From Lujinxingiaceae bacterium (GTDB lineage: Bacteria > Myxococcota_A > Bradymonadia > Bradymonadales > Bradymonadaceae), in assembly GCA_013697635.1 (NCBI GenBank), contig JACCWM010000122.1, positions 1-64,000 on the forward strand: a stretch of DNA of 64,000 nucleotides. Reading direction: 5' to 3'. The notes beneath the pieces were generated by a model that saw only the letters and a list, made by a program, of their open reading frames with translations, searched no databases and had not been told where the DNA came from. This document shows positions 48,484-57,137 of the stretch, piece after piece (position 1 is the stretch's first letter; each line of letters opens with the position of its first letter). Position numbers and translations under genes: made by a program.

Positions 48484-49596
48484 ATGCAAAGAGCGGGCAG
48501 CATCGTGGGTTCCAGGCTCGCCGTCTCCCTGTTCGCATCCGGCCTGTTTTTGGCCGGCCTGCTCGCGAGTAGGCCGGCGGCAAGCGAGCTGCACGACGGG
48601 CCCGGCCCTGCGCCCTCCTCTTACACGCACCTGGCCTGGGAGCACTGGGATCCGCACGGCCTCGACGCCGCGCGCTTTCCGCTTCAGGTGGTCTTCGTCG
48701 GCGCACCGCCCGATAGCCTGAGCGAGGCCGAGGTTGTCGCAGCCTTGAGCGCATCGATCGAGGCGTGGAACGATGTCGCATGCTCCTATGCGGCGCTCCA
48801 TTATGCCGGCCGACGCGAGCGTCTCGATACGATCGGCGAGGGCGAGATCTCGGTGTTTTTTGCCGACGCGTCGCTGTGGTCGTCGTGGCCCAAGCCGCCG
48901 ATCGCCTCGGCCCACCTGGGCACCCACATCGCGCTCAACGGCGAAACCTTTGACTGGCAATCCTCGCCGCAGCCCTACTACAAGTTTCACGAACGCGATG
49001 CCGGCCTGAAGTCGCGCATCGACCTACAAAGCGCGCTCACCCATGAGCTCGGCCACGTCTTGGGCCTGGAGCACACCCTCGACGACAACACGGCGACCAT
49101 GGTCGCATCGTATCTGCGAGACGGCGGCCAGTCGCGCCTTGCGGCCGACGACAAGTTCGGGCTTTGCCATCTGTATCCAAGCACTCCCTCGATCGACGAG
49201 TGCCAGCGCGACGCCCAGTGTGGCGACGGTGGGCGCTGCGTGAGCGACGAGACCTTTCGCGTTTGCCAGAAGCCCCAGGGACGCGTTGGCGATCACTGCG
49301 CGCTCGATCTGCTGCACTGCCCTGGCACCTGCCTGATGAGCTCGTCGGCCACCGGCACCGGCTACTGCACGACCCCGTGCAGCGAGCAGTCCCAGTGCCC
49401 GAGTTACTTCGGCTGCGAGGTGGCCGGCGAAAAGAGTTTGTGCAAGCTGACGGGTGTGGGTTTTGAGCAGCCTTCGCGCGGTTGTGCGGTGGCCGTGGCG
49501 CGCCCTGCTAGCCTGAGCCTGGGCGGCGGCGTGCTCGCTTTGGGGCTCGCGGCGGCCTTGCTCGTTGTCCGACGCCGGCGCCGGCTCAATTGGTAA
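48484..49596 (+). CDS. Matrixin-like metalloprotease with MYXO-CTERM-like tail
   Basis: 370 residues from ATG 48484. Signal peptide AVSLFASGLFLAGLLASRPAAS. The zinc-protease motif HELGHVLGLEH (H-E-x-x-H-x-x-G-x-x-H) lies in the middle with HLYP after it, as in matrixin/M10-type enzymes. A Cys-rich region follows (CQRDAQCGDGGRC, CPGTCLMSS, CEVAGEKSLC). The C-terminus has a Cys, a hydrophobic helix (LGGGVLALGLAAALLVV) and RRRRRLNW, the layout of MYXO-CTERM sorting signals. It overlaps the convergent gene by 11 bases. Confidence 0.88.
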   Translation: MQRAGSIVGSRLAVSLFASGLFLAGLLASRPAASELHDGPGPAPSSYTHLAWEHWDPHGLDAARFPLQVVFVGAPPDSLSEAEVVAALSASIEAWNDVACSYAALHYAGRRERLDTIGEGEISVFFADASLWSSWPKPPIASAHLGTHIALNGETFDWQSSPQPYYKFHERDAGLKSRIDLQSALTHELGHVLGLEHTLDDNTATMVASYLRDGGQSRLAADDKFGLCHLYPSTPSIDECQRDAQCGDGGRCVSDETFRVCQKPQGRVGDHCALDLLHCPGTCLMSSSATGTGYCTTPCSEQSQCPSYFGCEVAGEKSLCKLTGVGFEQPSRGCAVAVARPASLSLGGGVLALGLAAALLVVRRRRRLNW

Positions 49597-50191
49597 ATTG
49601 CACGCCGCTCAACATCCGCTCAAAGCTTCGATAGTAGGCATCGCGCCGGCGCGTGGGAAAAAAGCCCGTGAAGATCCAGGCCTCGCCATTGCGATAGTGT
49701 TGCCAGACGACCAGATGGTATTCGCGCCCGCTCGAGATCACCTGGTACTCGATCTCGTCGCCGCTGAGCTCGCCGTAGACCGTCGCTGGCCGGCGCGCGA
49801 TCTGGGTAAAACCTGTGCGCCTCAGATTGTTGTGAAAGGCCGAGTAGAAGTGCTCGACTTGTTTGGGGCCCAGCTTGCGGCTGACGCGCACCTCGATCTG
49901 GGCCTGACCGTCACCGGCTGCCCGAAAGAGCGCGATCGCCCCTTGCGGCGCCTGCCCGAGCAGCCAGCCGCCCGGCCTGGGTATGCGAACGCCGTATTGC
50001 TCGTTGACGACCACCTGGTTGTCCGCGGTTTGAGTCGCCTGTGTGCCTGTCGGCGTGCCCGACCACGTACCCGGCTGCTCGGCCTCCTCGATAGGCTCAA
50101 AGACGATCGGGGCTTGCGCCGCGGCCGGAGGTGCAACCAGCACCAGAGCCAGCAGCGTGCTGGCTAGCAGTATTGTGGAGTTCAAGCGCAT
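49586..50191 (-). CDS. Secreted protein, paralogue of the next gene
   Basis: 201 residues from ATG 50191, giving the signal peptide TILLASTLLALVLVAPPAAA; the longer frame is rejected. The mature domain begins NEQYGVRIPRPGGWLLGQ and continues with IEVRVSRKLGPKQVEHFYSA and AWIFTGFFP. This matches the PsbP/DUF1795-like layout of secreted 150-residue domains. The same domain is found in the product of 50363..50863. Function unknown. Confidence 0.75.
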   Translation of the reverse strand: MRLNSTILLASTLLALVLVAPPAAAQAPIVFEPIEEAEQPGTWSGTPTGTQATQTADNQVVVNEQYGVRIPRPGGWLLGQAPQGAIALFRAAGDGQAQIEVRVSRKLGPKQVEHFYSAFHNNLRRTGFTQIARRPATVYGELSGDEIEYQVISSGREYHLVVWQHYRNGEAWIFTGFFPTRRRDAYYRSFERMLSGVQFTN

Positions 50192-50362
50192 GGCGCAATC
50201 CGCGGGTGGCAGCACTTGTAGGCAAGCGCCAGGTGCAATCTTTGACACGCTGCTCGGGCGGTCCAACGCCAAAAACGACTCGGCCCACAAGCCTGAGGGG
50301 TTCAGGGTGCGGGCCGGGGATGCAACCAAGCAGCGTTTAAGAGCGCGAAGCCCACAAGGGCT

Positions 50363-50863
50363 TTAGCCCTTGAACTTCATGTTCTTGACCACCGACTTGA
50401 AGTCTTCGACGTACTTCTCTTTTTCGACGTCTTGCATGTAGCCGACGACGAGCCACGCGGTGCTCTCACGCAAAAACTGGAAGATCACCACTTCGAGGGT
50501 GACACCGGAATGCGTGAACTTGTAGGTCGTCTCCGTGCCCTTTTGCGAGCCGATCGTGGCCTCTTCCTGCTTGACCTGCTCGAAGTTCGACTCGGTCAAG
50601 GTCTTGTGGAAGGTGCTGAAGAAGACGTCCGAGACGTCCTGGGCCATGAGCTTGGTGCCGACGACCTCGATCTGGCTCTGCGAGCCGCGATGCTTGAAGT
50701 TGGCGACGGCCTTCTCGTTACCCTGGGTAACTTCCCACTTCGCCGGGGGCGTAATCGTGACACCGAATTCTTCGTTGTCGATCGGCTTGGCATCCTGGGC
50801 GACGGCGACCGACGACATCGCAAGCGTAAGCAGTAAAGCAAATACGAAGCGAGCGATTCTCAT
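50363..50863 (-). CDS. Secreted PsbP/DUF1795-like protein
   Basis: 166 residues. Signal peptide MRIARFVFALLLTLAMSSVA. Mature domain: NEEFGVTITPPAKWEVTQGN, then SQSQIEVVGTKLMAQDVSDV, VFFSTFHKTLTESNFEQV and STAWLVVGYMQD. It aligns along its whole length with the neighbouring 49586..50191 product (N-E-x-[FY]-G-V-x-I-x-x-P-x-x-W, IEV, AW). The ribosome site TTAGGAG is strong. Possibly periplasmic; function unknown. Confidence 0.8.
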   Translation of the reverse strand: MRIARFVFALLLTLAMSSVAVAQDAKPIDNEEFGVTITPPAKWEVTQGNEKAVANFKHRGSQSQIEVVGTKLMAQDVSDVFFSTFHKTLTESNFEQVKQEEATIGSQKGTETTYKFTHSGVTLEVVIFQFLRESTAWLVVGYMQDVEKEKYVEDFKSVVKNMKFKG

Positions 50864-51161: not shown

Positions 51162-53492
51162 ATGAGTCGTCTTGTCGTAGTGGTCTGGTTGGCCGGGTGC
51201 CTTCTGTCCTGCCTTTTTCTGGCGTCGTGCTTGCCGTCGCCGAGCAGTTTGTTGCCCGGTATTGTCGGGCCTGCCGAAGAAGCGCCCGCAGAAGAAGCGC
51301 CCGCAGAGGCGTCGGCGGAGTCTGGTGCCGAGGCTCCCGCTGCAGAGGCGAGCGAAGGGCCACTCACGTTGCATAACACCATCGAGCCGGGGATCGAGCA
51401 GGCCGCCTTAATTCTCGAGACCCACTTCGACGCCTTTTTGCAGCGCGAGCCGCTGGGTTTTGATTGGTTTCTCTTCGAACACGTGGCAATTGACACGCTC
51501 GCTCTTGTCCATCGCCTCGACGACATGCGCCGCGAGGTCGACAGCGTGGCGCCGCTGAAGGTTGTGCAGTGGATTTTGCCACTGTTTTTGCTAGCCCTGT
51601 TGTTCGGCCTGTTCCTGGTGCTCGATCGACAGTTCGGCCGGCTCAGCCAGCGCTGGCAATCGCGCATTCACTTCGATCTCTCGCGCGTGCTGACGCGGCT
51701 GGCACGGGCCTTGGTCCTGGTGGCTGGCCGCTGCCTGCCGGCGGCCTTGCTGATCTTTCCGAGCTACTTTCCTATCCAGGCGCTCTTTGATCGCGCGCCG
51801 TGGTCGGTGCTGTTCACCGAGATGCTGTGGCTGCTGCTGGCCTATCGCGCATGCCATGGACTGATCTTGGTGGCGTTTAGCGGGCAGCTCTTGAGCATCC
51901 CCGAGGTGCACGCGCAGCGCCTGGAGCGTTTTGGGGTCTGGTTTGCGCGGGCGACGTTTGGCTTCTGGCTGGCGCTGTCGACGATCGAGGCATTTGGCTA
52001 TCGCGGCGACGTGCTGGCCGTCGTCTTGTTCGGCTTCAAGCTGGTGATGGCGACCGCGCCGGTCTATTTGTTCGTGATGCGTCGCTCGGTGCTCGCGCTG
52101 CTGCCGGCCGAGGACGGATCGCCGCTGTATCTGGCCTTTCGCCAGACGATTGAGCGCCATTACAATTGGTTTTTGGGCATCACGATCGCCCTGCTCTTTT
52201 TGAACGCCGCCGGCTTCACCCATGCCGCGAGCTTCATCTTGGTGCGCGGCTACACGATCCTCGTGCTGGTGACCGTCTCCTTTGCGATCGCGCAGCGCTT
52301 TCGTCGCTACTTGCACGAGCGCGCCGAAGACGACGACGCCGCCCTGCTCCTGGAGAGCCTCGAGCAGCTTTTGCTGCTCGCTGGTGCTGCAATCCTGGGC
52401 GTGGTCGTCTTGCGCTTGTTGGCCATTTATGACGCGCTGATCGCGATGCTCAAGATCCCCTTTCTGAGCGTCGGTAGCGTCGCGATCTCGCTGTTTCATC
52501 TGCTCAACGTGGTCGTGATTGTCACTGCGGCGGTGATCGCGACCAAGGTCTTGAAGGCCATACTCAACACCAAGATATTCCCGGCGTTCAACGTCGACAT
52601 TGGCGTTGCCTACGCCTTCAACACCCTGATCAACTACGCGCTGGTGGTGATCGCCTTCTTCATGTCGCTCTTTGCGCTGGGCGTGCACCTCTCGGCGGTG
52701 GTCGTCGTTCTGGCCAGTTTGGGCGTGGGCATCGGTTTTGGTCTGCAGACGCTGACCGAGAACCTGATCTCGGGCTTCATCATCTTGTTTGGCCGCTCGG
52801 TCAAAAAGGGCGACTTCATCACGGTCAACAGCGTCTACGGACAGGTCGAGGCCGTCGGCGCGCGCAGCGTGGTGGTTCGCACCCCGGACAACTACGACAT
52901 GCTCATCCCGAGCAAGGAGATCGTCAGCGGCCAGATCATCAACTGGACCTACCGTGACAGCGTCGTGCGCGTGCAGGTTCCCGTGGGCGTCAGCTACAAG
53001 AGCAATCCGCGCGAGGTCGAGAAGGTGTTGCTCGCGACGGCCAAGCTGCACCCCAAGATCTTGGAAGAGCCTGCCTGTGAGGTCTGGTTGACGAGCTTTG
53101 GCGACAGCGCGATCAACTTCTCGCTGCTGATCCATTTCGATTGTCGCCACATCAGCGAGCGACGGCTGCGCGGCCAGCTCAACTTTCTGATCTGGGATGC
53201 GCTCGCGGCCGCTGGCATCGAGATCCCCTTCTCTCAGCACGATCTGCACCTCAAATCAAGCGAGCTTGGGCCCGAGGGCTTGATGGCAATGAGTAAGCCC
53301 CAGGACAAGCCCGAGAAAAAGCCCGAAGACAAGCCCGAAGACAAGCCCGCAGACAAGCACGAGGAAAAGATCGAGGAAAGCCTCGACGCAGGTCTTTTAG
53401 GGCCGCAGGTGCCGGCGCAGGTCGTCGACGAAGCGGCGGATGCGCTCGGAGAGGTCGGCCCCGCGGCCCTCGATCAGCCAGACCAGCGCTGA
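51162..53492 (+). CDS. MscS-family mechanosensitive channel, long form
   Basis: 776 residues from ATG 51162. The N-terminus has a signal or lipoprotein-like start (LAGCLLSCLFLASCLPSP), then an acidic AEEAPAEEAPAE repeat and a periplasmic helical region. About eight to ten membrane helices follow. The MscS core is clear: pore helix AVVVVLASLGVGIGFGLQTL, then FGRSVKKGDFITVNSVYGQV and TPDNYDMLIPSKEIVSGQII. The C-terminal tail has a KPEDKPEDKPADK repeat. The last 32 codons overlap the convergent TrpA-like gene by 96 bases. It releases solutes on hypo-osmotic shock. Confidence 0.9.
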   Translation: MSRLVVVVWLAGCLLSCLFLASCLPSPSSLLPGIVGPAEEAPAEEAPAEASAESGAEAPAAEASEGPLTLHNTIEPGIEQAALILETHFDAFLQREPLGFDWFLFEHVAIDTLALVHRLDDMRREVDSVAPLKVVQWILPLFLLALLFGLFLVLDRQFGRLSQRWQSRIHFDLSRVLTRLARALVLVAGRCLPAALLIFPSYFPIQALFDRAPWSVLFTEMLWLLLAYRACHGLILVAFSGQLLSIPEVHAQRLERFGVWFARATFGFWLALSTIEAFGYRGDVLAVVLFGFKLVMATAPVYLFVMRRSVLALLPAEDGSPLYLAFRQTIERHYNWFLGITIALLFLNAAGFTHAASFILVRGYTILVLVTVSFAIAQRFRRYLHERAEDDDAALLLESLEQLLLLAGAAILGVVVLRLLAIYDALIAMLKIPFLSVGSVAISLFHLLNVVVIVTAAVIATKVLKAILNTKIFPAFNVDIGVAYAFNTLINYALVVIAFFMSLFALGVHLSAVVVVLASLGVGIGFGLQTLTENLISGFIILFGRSVKKGDFITVNSVYGQVEAVGARSVVVRTPDNYDMLIPSKEIVSGQIINWTYRDSVVRVQVPVGVSYKSNPREVEKVLLATAKLHPKILEEPACEVWLTSFGDSAINFSLLIHFDCRHISERRLRGQLNFLIWDALAAAGIEIPFSQHDLHLKSSELGPEGLMAMSKPQDKPEKKPEDKPEDKPADKHEEKIEESLDAGLLGPQVPAQVVDEAADALGEVGPAALDQPDQR

Positions 53493-54185
53493 GCCGACGA
53501 GCACGCCATCGGCGAACTCGCCGACCTCGGCGGCCTCCTCGCCGGTTGAGACCTTCATCGAGGCGATGATCGGCAGCTGCGTGTGCTGGTGAAAGCCGGC
53601 CATGGCGGCCTTGAAGCTCTCGGTTGAGATGGTCACCTCACCGCCGGAGTGGCCCGTCCAGACGATGAAGCCGCGCGCGCCCTCGGCCATGCTCTGAAAG
53701 CGCTCGGTGGACGTGGTGGGCGCCACGCTGCGAATGATGGCGATGCCGTGAGCGGCAAAGCTCTGCTCGACGCCCTGGGATTCGTCCCAGGGCAGGTCGG
53801 CGATCATGACGGCGTCGACACCGGCCGCGGACATCTGGCGCGCGCAGTTTTCCAGGCCCATGGCCAAGAATCGGTTGAAGTAGCTCGAAGCGACGATCGG
53901 CGTCTCGAAGCGCTCGCGAAAACGCGCGGCCAGCTCGCAGATGTCTGACCAGCCGACGTCCTCGTGGATGGCGCGCGCGCAGGCGCGCTGAATCACCGGG
54001 CCGTGGTAGGTCGGATCGGAGAAAGGCACGATGAGCTCGATGATGTCGACGCCCTGCTCGGCCAGAATGCTCATGTACTTCAAGGTCGCTTCGACGTGGG
54101 GATCGCCCGCAACCAGGGCGCCCATGAGCAGGGGCCGGCCGTCTGCGGCGAAGTCCGACTCGAGTTTTTCCAGCCGCTGGCTCAT
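53397..54185 (-). CDS. TrpA-like protein lacking catalytic residues
   Basis: 262 residues, the normal length for tryptophan synthase alpha. Homology is clear (MGALVAGDP, VPFSDPTYHGPVIQ, AGVDAVMIADLPWDES, VAPTTSTERF, LVGSALVWLIE). Glu50 matches catalytic Glu49. The catalytic Asp60 position is His61 (DPLADGP becomes DPTYHGP). In loop 6 the conserved R179, T183 and G184 positions hold His, Glu and Val (WTGHSGGEV). The phosphate-loop GFG is replaced by MKV/KVS. The normal alpha reaction is therefore unlikely. The start overlaps the TrpB-like stop by ATGA. No other trp genes are nearby. Confidence 0.85.
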   Translation of the reverse strand: MSQRLEKLESDFAADGRPLLMGALVAGDPHVEATLKYMSILAEQGVDIIELIVPFSDPTYHGPVIQRACARAIHEDVGWSDICELAARFRERFETPIVASSYFNRFLAMGLENCARQMSAAGVDAVMIADLPWDESQGVEQSFAAHGIAIIRSVAPTTSTERFQSMAEGARGFIVWTGHSGGEVTISTESFKAAMAGFHQHTQLPIIASMKVSTGEEAAEVGEFADGVLVGSALVWLIEGRGADLSERIRRFVDDLRRHLRP

Positions 54186-55381
54186 GGTGTCTGCCGGCTG
54201 TGGGCGAATTGGTCGAGGCGCTCGAGATCGCGCAGTCCGCTGCCGGTGATGCCCACGACGACGTGCTGTTCGCTGCCCAGGGTCGCCGCGATCTTGATCG
54301 CGTAGGAGAGGGCGTGGCCGGACTCCAGGCAGACGAGAAGACCCTCGGTGCGGGCCAGGGTGCGCACGGCCAGGCAGGCATCGTCGTCGCTCACGGCGAC
54401 ATAGTGCACGCGACCCTCGGCAGCCCAGCGCGCATGCTGGGGGCCGACGTTGGGCACGCACAGGCCGCCGGCTATCGAGTGTGGAACGAGCACCTGTCCG
54501 TTGTCGTCTTGGAGCAGATAGGAGTGGGTGCCCATAAAGACGCCGGGGCTTCCGACGACGAGGCTTGCCGAGGTGCGCGCGCCGTGGCCGTCGCCACCGC
54601 CTTGCACGCCCACCAATTGGATGTCGGTGTGCTTGGCGAACTCGGAGAAGAGGCCGACACCAAAAGCACCGCTGCCGATCGGGGCGATGATGTATTCCGG
54701 GTCACAGCCGCGGCGCTTGAGCTGCACGCGGGTCTCGGCGCCGATGACGCCCAGCGCGTAGGCCAAGATGCGCGGGAAGGGATCGGGCATGGCAAGCGAG
54801 CTGGCGCAGTAGTGGGCCTGGTTGGAGTGGGTGGCCCAAAAGCGCAGCGCCTCGGAGCAGGCGCGCTTTCGCCCGCGCGTGCCGGTGTCGACGGTCTCGA
54901 TGACCACACCGAGCTCGAGCATGCGCTGGACGTTGAGTGTCTCGTTTTCGAGGTCTTCGCGGCCCATGAAGATGCGCGCCTCGAGCCCCATGGCTGCTGC
55001 GATCGAGCCCAGCGCCACGCCAAAATCCCCGGTGCCCGTCTCGCCGATCACCGAGCGGCGTCCAAGGCGGCGCGCGAGCAAGACCTGCAAGACGGCCGTG
55101 TTGATGCTAAAGGAGCCGCCCTGGCAGAGGTCTTCACGCTTGACCCAGATCTGGGCACCGCCGACGCGCTCGGAGAGCGCGCCCAGGTGGCTGACGGGCG
55201 TGGGCCGGCCGATGCGATGATCGAGCCAGCGCTCCATGGTAGTGACGAACTTGGGGTCATCGACGGCCTCGTCGAAGGCATCGGCGATCTCCTGGAGCGG
55301 CGTCCAGAGGGACTCGGCGACGTAGCGCCCGCCAAAGCGTCCGAATCGGCCCGGCAAAAGCCGCTCGTTTGTGGTCGACAT
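54182..55381 (-). CDS. TrpB-like protein lacking the PLP-binding lysine
   Basis: 399 residues, TrpB length. Family blocks: FGRFGGRYVAESLWTPLQEI, GRPTPVSHL, WVKREDLCQGG, ETGTGDFGVALGS, SVGPQHA-like NVGPQHARW and LESGHALSYAIK. The PLP motif GGAHKTN reads GGSFSIN, so His86-Lys87 are Phe91-Ser92; Lys87 normally forms the Schiff base. The phosphate loop GGGSN is GSGAF (236-240), Gln114-His115 are Asp-Phe, and Ser377 is Thr. The Glu109 equivalent (Glu114) is kept. PLP chemistry is very unlikely. The start shares a base with the SRPBCC stop (TGATG). Confidence 0.88.
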   Translation of the reverse strand: MSTTNERLLPGRFGRFGGRYVAESLWTPLQEIADAFDEAVDDPKFVTTMERWLDHRIGRPTPVSHLGALSERVGGAQIWVKREDLCQGGSFSINTAVLQVLLARRLGRRSVIGETGTGDFGVALGSIAAAMGLEARIFMGREDLENETLNVQRMLELGVVIETVDTGTRGRKRACSEALRFWATHSNQAHYCASSLAMPDPFPRILAYALGVIGAETRVQLKRRGCDPEYIIAPIGSGAFGVGLFSEFAKHTDIQLVGVQGGGDGHGARTSASLVVGSPGVFMGTHSYLLQDDNGQVLVPHSIAGGLCVPNVGPQHARWAAEGRVHYVAVSDDDACLAVRTLARTEGLLVCLESGHALSYAIKIAATLGSEQHVVVGITGSGLRDLERLDQFAHSRQTP

Positions 55382-55857
55382 CAGCGCGAGGCACCGGCGT
55401 GGGCTTTCTCGAGGTGGCTCTTGACCAGCTCGAGATAGCCGCCAACGCCCTTGCGAATCTCGCGCGCGACGATGCCGTTGAACACCTTGGCGGCAAGCTT
55501 TGGGATGGGAAGGTCGGTGGCGATCGTCTCCTCGTAGTCGACCTCGGTCTTTTGGCCGAGCTTGCGACAGCGCACGGTGCCCTTGGAGCGCATGTTGCCC
55601 TCACCGACGGTATTCCAGACCACGCGATCGTCGCCTTCGCGCTCGTAGCGCACGCTGTAGGTGCCCTGGAACTTGACGCCCTTCTCGTTTTTCTCGCGCA
55701 GCACCCACTTCCACAGGCCAGGCTCGATCTCCTCGGCGCGCTCGAGCTGGGTAAAACACACCTGCAGCTTTTTAGGATCACCAAAGAAGTCAACGACCTG
55801 CTCGAGCGGGGCGTTGATCACCAGTGACTGTTTTTCGGTACCCTCGATCCAGGCCAT
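55381..55857 (-). CDS. SRPBCC (START/Bet v1-like) ligand-binding protein
   Basis: 158 residues from ATG 55857; the longer frame would overlap mepA. The protein reads as a helix-grip SRPBCC domain: SLVINAPLEQVVDFFGDPKK, then a beta sheet (GTYSVRYEREGDDRVVWNTV, TVRCRKLGQKTEVDYEETIA) and a long C-terminal helix (IRKGVGGYLELVKSHLEKAH). Such domains bind lipids, polyketides or other hydrophobic ligands. Its stop codon overlaps the TrpB-like start, so the three genes are translationally coupled. The ligand is unknown. Confidence 0.82.
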   Translation of the reverse strand: MAWIEGTEKQSLVINAPLEQVVDFFGDPKKLQVCFTQLERAEEIEPGLWKWVLREKNEKGVKFQGTYSVRYEREGDDRVVWNTVGEGNMRSKGTVRCRKLGQKTEVDYEETIATDLPIPKLAAKVFNGIVAREIRKGVGGYLELVKSHLEKAHAGASR

Positions 55858-55894: not shown

Positions 55895-56935
55895 TTATCG
55901 GCAGTTGCTGTCTTCAGGCCCACAGCGAAAGCGGATATGGGCATGGTTGAGATGCCCACGTGCGTGGCGGATGAGGCCGTTGCTGGCGTTTTGGCCGTGG
56001 GGGTACTGGATCAACGGCTCGAGCTCCTCGGCGCTGTAGCCGATCGAGAGGCCGTACTCGTGGAGCACCTTTTGCAAACGGTAGTCGATGAAGACGTACT
56101 CCACCTCGCTGGTGTCGATCAAGATCTTGAGCAAATGCCAATTCTTGACCGCGTCGAAGGTCTCTGGCGTCATGTTTCGAAAGTCGGGCAACTCGATGTT
56201 GCCGCGGTGATAGAAGGCCAGATCGACGTCGCGCCCGGATTGATGGCTCTTGTGGGGGCGCATGCGACCGCCGTTTTGCTGGCTCAAGCTGCCCACGACC
56301 ATGTCCGGTGCGTCAGGCCAGCGCGCCTTGATGTCGGCGCCGGCACCCTCGAGCAGGTTGATCGTGCGCTTGGTGCCAAAGGCGCGCGCCTGGTTGCGAA
56401 CACGCAGCCCCGGGCTGTCCTGCAGGGCGACGCCATTGTAGAGGCGGCCGCCGTTGGCCGCGCCCCACGAGGTGCTCCTGCCGTCGGTGGTGGTCACGTT
56501 GGGAACTTGCAGGCGCACTTGCTGGCCAATCTGTAAGCGTCGCGGGTTGACCCGGCGGTTCCACTGCTGAATCTGCTGCACGCTGACGCGGTGGCGTTTG
56601 GCGATCGCCTCGAAGGTGTCACCGGCGCGCACGGTGTGCACCACGGCCATGGTCTTGCTCACCGGCGCGGGGGGCTTGATCACCTCGGCCGAGCGAACGA
56701 TCAGCGTTGTGTCCGCTACGATCGCGATCGAATCGAGCTTGTTCCAGCCCAAGAGGTCGTTGATGCCTACTTTGAAGCGCAAGGCTATGGCCCCCAGAGT
56801 GTCCTCCGGGCTGACCGTGTAATACAAAAGATCGTCTTGGGGTTTGTTCTCGCTGCTGGCCGGCGTGCTCACCACCATTCCAGCCAACATCAAACTTGCA
56901 GCCATCATCAGTTTCGATCGTTGCCATTTTGCCAC
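55895..56935 (-). CDS. mepA: MepA-type murein endopeptidase with two LysM domains
   Basis: 346 residues from GTG 56935, chosen because GGAGG lies 5 bases upstream and a signal peptide follows (LMMAASLMLAGMVVSTPASS). Two LysM domains bind peptidoglycan: YTVSPEDTLGAIALRFKVGI and HTVRAGDTFEAIAKRHRVSV. The C-terminal 190 residues are a penicillin-insensitive (family M74) endopeptidase, with the zinc motifs HKSHQSGRDVDLAFY and RGHLNHAHIRFRCG. It cleaves D-Ala-mDAP cross-links. E. coli MepA has no LysM domains, so this is a longer form. SRPBCC follows after 37 bases. Confidence 0.9.
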   Translation of the reverse strand: MAKWQRSKLMMAASLMLAGMVVSTPASSENKPQDDLLYYTVSPEDTLGAIALRFKVGINDLLGWNKLDSIAIVADTTLIVRSAEVIKPPAPVSKTMAVVHTVRAGDTFEAIAKRHRVSVQQIQQWNRRVNPRRLQIGQQVRLQVPNVTTTDGRSTSWGAANGGRLYNGVALQDSPGLRVRNQARAFGTKRTINLLEGAGADIKARWPDAPDMVVGSLSQQNGGRMRPHKSHQSGRDVDLAFYHRGNIELPDFRNMTPETFDAVKNWHLLKILIDTSEVEYVFIDYRLQKVLHEYGLSIGYSAEELEPLIQYPHGQNASNGLIRHARGHLNHAHIRFRCGPEDSNCR

Positions 56936-57137
56936 GCATACCTCCACTTCACCCATTGGCTTTGACGCCCTCACTTTCAACGCGTCAATTGATGGGTACG
57001 GTCTGTTAATGCCACGTCCAAAGGCCGAACTGGTCGTATTGTGGTTAACCAAGGCCCGGACGAAAGTCAAGCAGCGACCCTGCCACACAAACCTACACGA
57101 CGGCGCTGGTGCGCCTGTGTCGTGTGCACCTGAAGGG

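Follow-up and report, generated by a model that had tools for sequence, protein, structure and literature searches.

The trpB and trpA homologues of the window, that is, of the whole 64,000-nucleotide stretch of DNA analysed here, encode two proteins that very probably do not form a tryptophan synthase and that are functional and kept under selection. In these relatives of the predatory Bradymonas, the pair probably has a new job. Both subunits of a textbook allosteric complex have lost key catalytic residues and yet remain paired and conserved, which makes the system a test of non-tryptophan roles. The question is directly testable, as an intact operon in the sister-family genome G023 represents the 'before' state and the culturable type strain Bradymonas sediminis FA350 (G002) carries the altered trpB-trpA pair. 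The two proteins are referred to below as the altered TrpB and the altered TrpA.

Table 1. Positions of the genes and residues discussed; those without a contig label are positions in the window.
Feature	Position	Strand	Description
LysM + M74 (penicillin-insensitive murein endopeptidase) gene	55895..56956	-	PF01476, PF03411; exported-looking
START/SRPBCC-like gene	55381..55857	-	158 aa; PF10604, Polyketide_cyc2
Altered trpB	54182..55381	-	Full-length TrpB homologue of 399 aa lacking the PLP lysine
Codon AGC (Ser92) of altered trpB	55106..55108	-	PLP lysine position (Lys87 of S. typhimurium TrpB)
Altered trpA	53397..54185	-	Overlaps the altered trpB stop as ATGA; TrpA homologue of 262 aa
E50 of altered TrpA	54036-54038	-	Glu49 equivalent, kept
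H61 of altered TrpA	54003-54005	-	Asp60 position, Asp to His
H179 of altered TrpA	53649-53651	-	New invariant His, loop 6
Altered trpC homologues	L149, L150, L151, L152:7508-8497; L154:6633-7469	-	Family f3, G026-G029; similar gene in G030

The TrpB homologue of the window

In catalytic TrpB, the internal aldimine with PLP is formed by Lys87. The altered TrpB reads QGGSFSI at this lysine. Among PDB sequences it is matched best by 5ey5_B, an ancestral TrpB (LBCA), over residues 11-389 (phmmer, E = 1e-97), and the GAHKIN of 5ey5_B aligns to GSFSIN. The PLP phosphate loop GGGSN is replaced by GSGAF and GQHG by GDFG. An earlier note on this DNA had reported the change of lysine to serine (GGSFSIN), the GSGAF loop and Asp-Phe in place of Gln-His, and the alignment agrees with it on all of them. 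Its further claim, that Ser377 has become Thr, is right for the window protein (T379) but not typical of the related proteins described below, 10 of whose 14 scorable copies have Ser at this position. The Glu109 equivalent, E114 in the window protein, is retained in most copies.

The same note held that the rest of the fold is intact with no frameshift. Indeed, the frame starts with ATG and runs uninterrupted for 399 aa, the GPQHA and LESGHA blocks are kept, and the phmmer match to 5ey5_B together with the top 50 Foldseek matches, which are TrpB, indicates a TrpB fold over the full length. The AlphaFold model of the protein was built from a five-row alignment; its mean pLDDT of 65 is moderate, and it was used for the fold only. 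The TIGR00263 trpB score is 369.6 bits, under the curated cut-off of 392.45, and on TIGR01415 (TrpB2), where the cut-off is 519 bits, the protein reaches 112. The altered TrpB groups with TrpB1, not with TrpB2.

Distribution and conserved changes of the altered TrpB

Close homologues of the altered TrpB were found in 15 of the 21 genomes of the Bradymonas sediminis family; a sixteenth (G005) carries the end of one copy at a contig edge. Identity to the window protein is 50-62% among the aligned family homologues. All 16 canonical TrpBs compared have the PLP lysine, and none of the 15 clade copies has it, the position being occupied by Cys (nine copies), Thr (three), Ser (two) or Ala (one). In a tree, the 15 sequences lie on one side of a single branch with a support of 100/100. 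Outside the family, genomes of the order and class and 379 sampled from the phylum were searched, and no score in the range of the clade was found; the best, 424 bits in G023, compares with 618-684 bits for complete or nearly complete clade members. A scan of genome contigs with the window protein alone brought up nothing closer than remote TrpBs and further members of PALP.

Across the clade the phosphate loop reads GSGxF or GSGxY. At sixteen positions all canonical TrpBs share one residue and all clade members a different one, and ten of these lie in the PLP/substrate shell, as delimited by a list of positions based on TrpB structures. The shell is enriched in such fixed switches relative to unchanged positions (p = 1.4e-4), and its enrichment among all changed positions is not significant (p = 0.07). 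Among the switches are H86F, H115F, N236F, Q114D, A112T and G233S. The PLP-contacting His86, His115 and Asn236 have become Phe in the clade (with one Tyr at two of these positions), and the aromatic replacement of all three suggests a plugged pocket. New invariant residues of the old active site are D/E119, F120, S237 and Q260.

Lys167 and Arg141 of the COMM domain are part of the known alpha-beta signalling. Neither position is conserved in the clade, which may mean that allostery of the classical kind has gone. The Asp that precedes GQ varies as well. No new invariant lysine was found among the positions gained in the 15-copy clade alignment. The invariant K81 sits in KRED, which also occurs in canonical TrpB, and the possibility raised in the earlier note that another conserved lysine occupies the PLP site was rejected on these grounds.

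The new invariant polar residues D/E119, S237 and Q260 could be read as signs of a new catalytic activity of the altered TrpB, either independent of PLP or with PLP held without the lysine. S. typhimurium Lys87Thr still gives external aldimine structures (PMC9512447), so the loss of the lysine alone is not proof of the loss of PLP; we infer the latter also from the lost phosphate loop and neighbouring residues. Such an activity nevertheless seems improbable. The residue replacing the lysine varies between C, T, S and A, which makes the role of a catalytic nucleophile unlikely, and four further residues have been lost, three of them to aromatics: the Asn of the phosphate loop, the His preceding the lysine, and Gln114-His115.

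Alteration of the TrpA partner

The earlier note overlooked the alteration of TrpA (D60H) and the conserved operon. The altered TrpA is present beside the altered TrpB in every genome, bar copies cut by contig ends, and scores 165 bits on TIGR00262, above the cut-off of 102.35. Glu49 is retained in 16 of 16 copies and the catalytic Asp60 is His in the same number, so that the catalytic pair of TrpA is no longer complete. Loop 6 is shortened and carries a new invariant His, within WTGHxG in all copies but one, which has SGH. In 15 of the 16 copies SM(x) stands in place of the phosphate segment GFG. The invariant set comprises E50, H61, W176 and H179. The activity of TrpA is abolished by D60N, D60A and D60Y and likewise by E49D (PMC12930369). 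Judging by the residues present, the altered pair is not expected to carry out either of the two half-reactions of tryptophan synthase.

Selection on the pair

The selection argument rests on NG86 estimates over close pairs. Among three genomes of one genus, dN was 0.015-0.028 and dS 0.46-0.66 for the altered TrpB; the corresponding values for the altered TrpA were 0.04-0.06 and about 0.5. The dN/dS ratios between close relatives are thus about 0.03-0.04 and 0.08-0.12, and, being low, they indicate that both genes are maintained. None of the 15 altered TrpB frames contains an inner stop. These ratios for TrpB, the open frames and the 15-genome clade substantiate the earlier proposal of a full-length pseudoenzyme kept under selection.

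Almost every genome of the family lacks the tryptophan pathway and five are without the pair, as might be expected if the genes were decaying pseudogenes, or erroneous sequences, left after the loss of the pathway. We give this explanation next to no credence, since 15 genomes with open frames share the altered state, dN/dS is far below 1 and new residues have been fixed. A sequencing or assembly artefact was ruled out by the occurrence of the lysine-less state in 15 genomes, and decay of the altered TrpB by its dN/dS.

Operon and neighbourhood

The order of genes throughout the family is LysM/M74, START-like (PF10604), altered trpB and altered trpA, with a gene for an MscS channel facing them. 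The LysM/M74 gene, whose start is uncertain (56956 or 56908), is the conserved first gene of the cluster. The START-like gene adjoins the altered trpB in most family genomes, and in the window its stop overlaps the altered trpB start as TGATG. Variants of this order are G004, where the START gene was not found, G002, where MscS is not beside the pair, and clusters interrupted by contig ends. Two related genes without a Pfam match, at 49586-50329 and 50363-50863 of the window (minus strand), are conserved beside MscS in many family genomes. A Pfam domain search of the cluster genes revealed no DNA-binding or signalling domain in the operon. PADLOC gave no match for any gene tested, and an anti-phage defence role was rejected for this reason.

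Five of the 21 family genomes lack the pair. In G001, whose genome is one contig, LysM/M74, START and MscS follow one another (L140:5544-8621) with the altered trpB and trpA missing. Its START and MscS genes are a few bases apart, which amounts to a clean loss of the pair. The absence of the pair from these genomes implies that it is dispensable in some species.

Tryptophan pathway in the family

No trpC, trpF or trpD above the curated cut-offs was found in the window genome, and therefore no substrate is expected. The altered TrpB is its sole TrpB. A second canonical trpAB, sought as the earlier note had proposed, was not found there; the only other match, a weak one of 80 residues on contig C180, was rejected as a real canonical TrpB. 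IGPS, PRAI and trpD score above cut-off in one of the 21 family genomes (G013) and in none of the other 20, in agreement with the multiple auxotrophies, tryptophan included, that have been reported for the group (PMC7460792).

The complete tryptophan pathway has been reported missing in all studied genomes of the group (PMC7460792); G013 contrasts with this report. It alone among the 21 genomes has the canonical trpD, trpC, trpF, trpB and trpA, which form one cluster separate from the altered pair. In addition to this full operon, G013 carries elsewhere a second TrpC-TrpF fusion (L157:6205-7578, minus strand), the TrpC half of which is without the usual catalytic motifs. Bradymonas sediminis FA350 has one standalone canonical TrpB (GAHKIN) without canonical trpA, trpC, trpD or trpF; this enzyme might salvage indole.

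A TrpB pseudoenzyme, TSB-like, exists in eudicots (PMC12727527), and the altered TrpB might act exactly as this plant protein does, activating a normal TrpA to release free indole from indole-3-glycerol phosphate. This is very unlikely, as Asp60 is missing in 16 of 16 altered TrpA copies and the window genome has no recognisable IGPS to provide the substrate.

Possible functions of the pair

The best explanation, which we hold tentatively and put somewhat short of an even chance, is that the altered TrpB, free of PLP, is the partner subunit of a TrpA that has itself been remodelled. A working trpB-trpA pair would have become a complex that is still needed, although not for making tryptophan. 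Of the PLP-site signature the altered TrpB has lost the lysine and most of the rest, and it has gained new fixed residues there. It would no longer bind PLP, and Phe at the positions of His86, His115 and Asn236 would fill the empty pocket. The protein would then be a structural or allosteric partner of the altered TrpA, as plant TSB-like is for its TrpA, and the TIM barrel of the altered TrpA, with Glu49 and two new histidines, would hold an active or ligand site for another small molecule. Counted against the partner role are the new invariant residues of the old TrpB site (D/E119, F120, Q260), since the site of a pure activator is expected to drift; they could mean that a new ligand is bound there. 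The variable positions of Lys167 and Arg141 and the five family genomes without the pair also count against it.

With both canonical sites broken and new residues fixed in both subunits, the pair could alternatively sense a ligand or serve as a regulatory scaffold without any catalysis. It would bind a small molecule, for example an aromatic or indole compound that prey release, at one or both of the former active sites and act on another protein. The START-like neighbour, which belongs to a ligand-binding fold, and the missing feeding pathway in these organisms are in line with such a function. We consider it possible but doubtful, because Glu49 in 16 of 16 copies and the two invariant His of the altered TrpA suggest a site for catalysis or a metal rather than a merely passive pocket, and because the operon is without a DNA-binding or signalling domain.

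Origin of the pair

The sister-family genome G023 contains trpC-START-trpB-trpA with intact catalytic residues (L156:6729-10843, minus strand). This points to a working trpC-START-trpB-trpA cluster as the probable ancestor of the altered TrpB and TrpA. In f3, a further family of the class (G026-G029), the START gene comes after a trpC (IGPS) homologue in which catalytic motifs, namely EIKRxSPS and the lysine of KDF, are gone and dN/dS is about 0.03-0.08; in G030 a similar altered trpC-like gene adjoins LysM/M74. From its residues, the f3 homologue may be a parallel example of a trp enzyme that was altered and yet retained.

Ancestral tryptophan enzymes may even have been turned repeatedly into non-tryptophan proteins at one LysM/M74-START locus, trpB and trpA becoming a complex in which the TrpA site is rebuilt and the TrpB site plugged, and a trpC homologue beside the START gene being altered in another family of the class, where purifying selection maintains it. 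We offer this as a speculative proposal, more doubtful than probable.

Comparison with known systems

The earlier note knew of no described family of this kind. This stands for bacteria, in that no description of a lysine-less bacterial TrpB clade was found in the open-licence papers searched, and the open-licence literature likewise yielded nothing on fold-type II PLP pseudoenzymes. It does not stand for TrpB as a whole: non-catalytic TrpB paralogues with other substitutions are already known in plants (PMC12727527).

TrpB1 (TIGR00263) shares with the altered TrpB the fold and length, about 40% identity, the KRED, GPQHA and LESGHA blocks and the gene position preceding trpA. The altered TrpB differs from it in being without the PLP lysine, in the replaced phosphate loop and Gln114-His115, and in scoring below the family cut-off. 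From TrpB2 (TIGR01415), the second prokaryotic type of TrpB, it is separated by a score far under the cut-off.

Plant TSB-like of eudicots is likewise a non-catalytic TrpB paralogue under selection and a proposed partner of TrpA, and this pseudoenzyme activates its TrpA (PMC12727527). Its key changes, however, are E190A in the indole site and D386E at the activating Asp, and its partner is a normal, indole-producing TrpA (PMC12727527). The altered TrpB does not show this set of changes, as most copies keep the indole-site Glu and the Asp varies. In the bacterial pair, by contrast, the lysine and phosphate site have been lost, TrpA is altered too and the IGP pathway is missing.

The altered TrpA resembles TrpA (TIGR00262) and the stand-alone BX1-type lyases in passing the TIGR00262 cut-off and in keeping Glu49, and departs from them in Asp60 to His, the shorter loop 6 and SM(x) in place of GFG. 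A closer likeness in fate is found in Chlamydia trachomatis, whose TrpA no longer acts on indole-3-glycerol phosphate and yet is kept for its partner, being required for tryptophan synthase activity (PMC6302012). In Chlamydia trachomatis, however, TrpB is still active, whereas neither the altered TrpB nor the altered TrpA keeps its canonical catalytic set.
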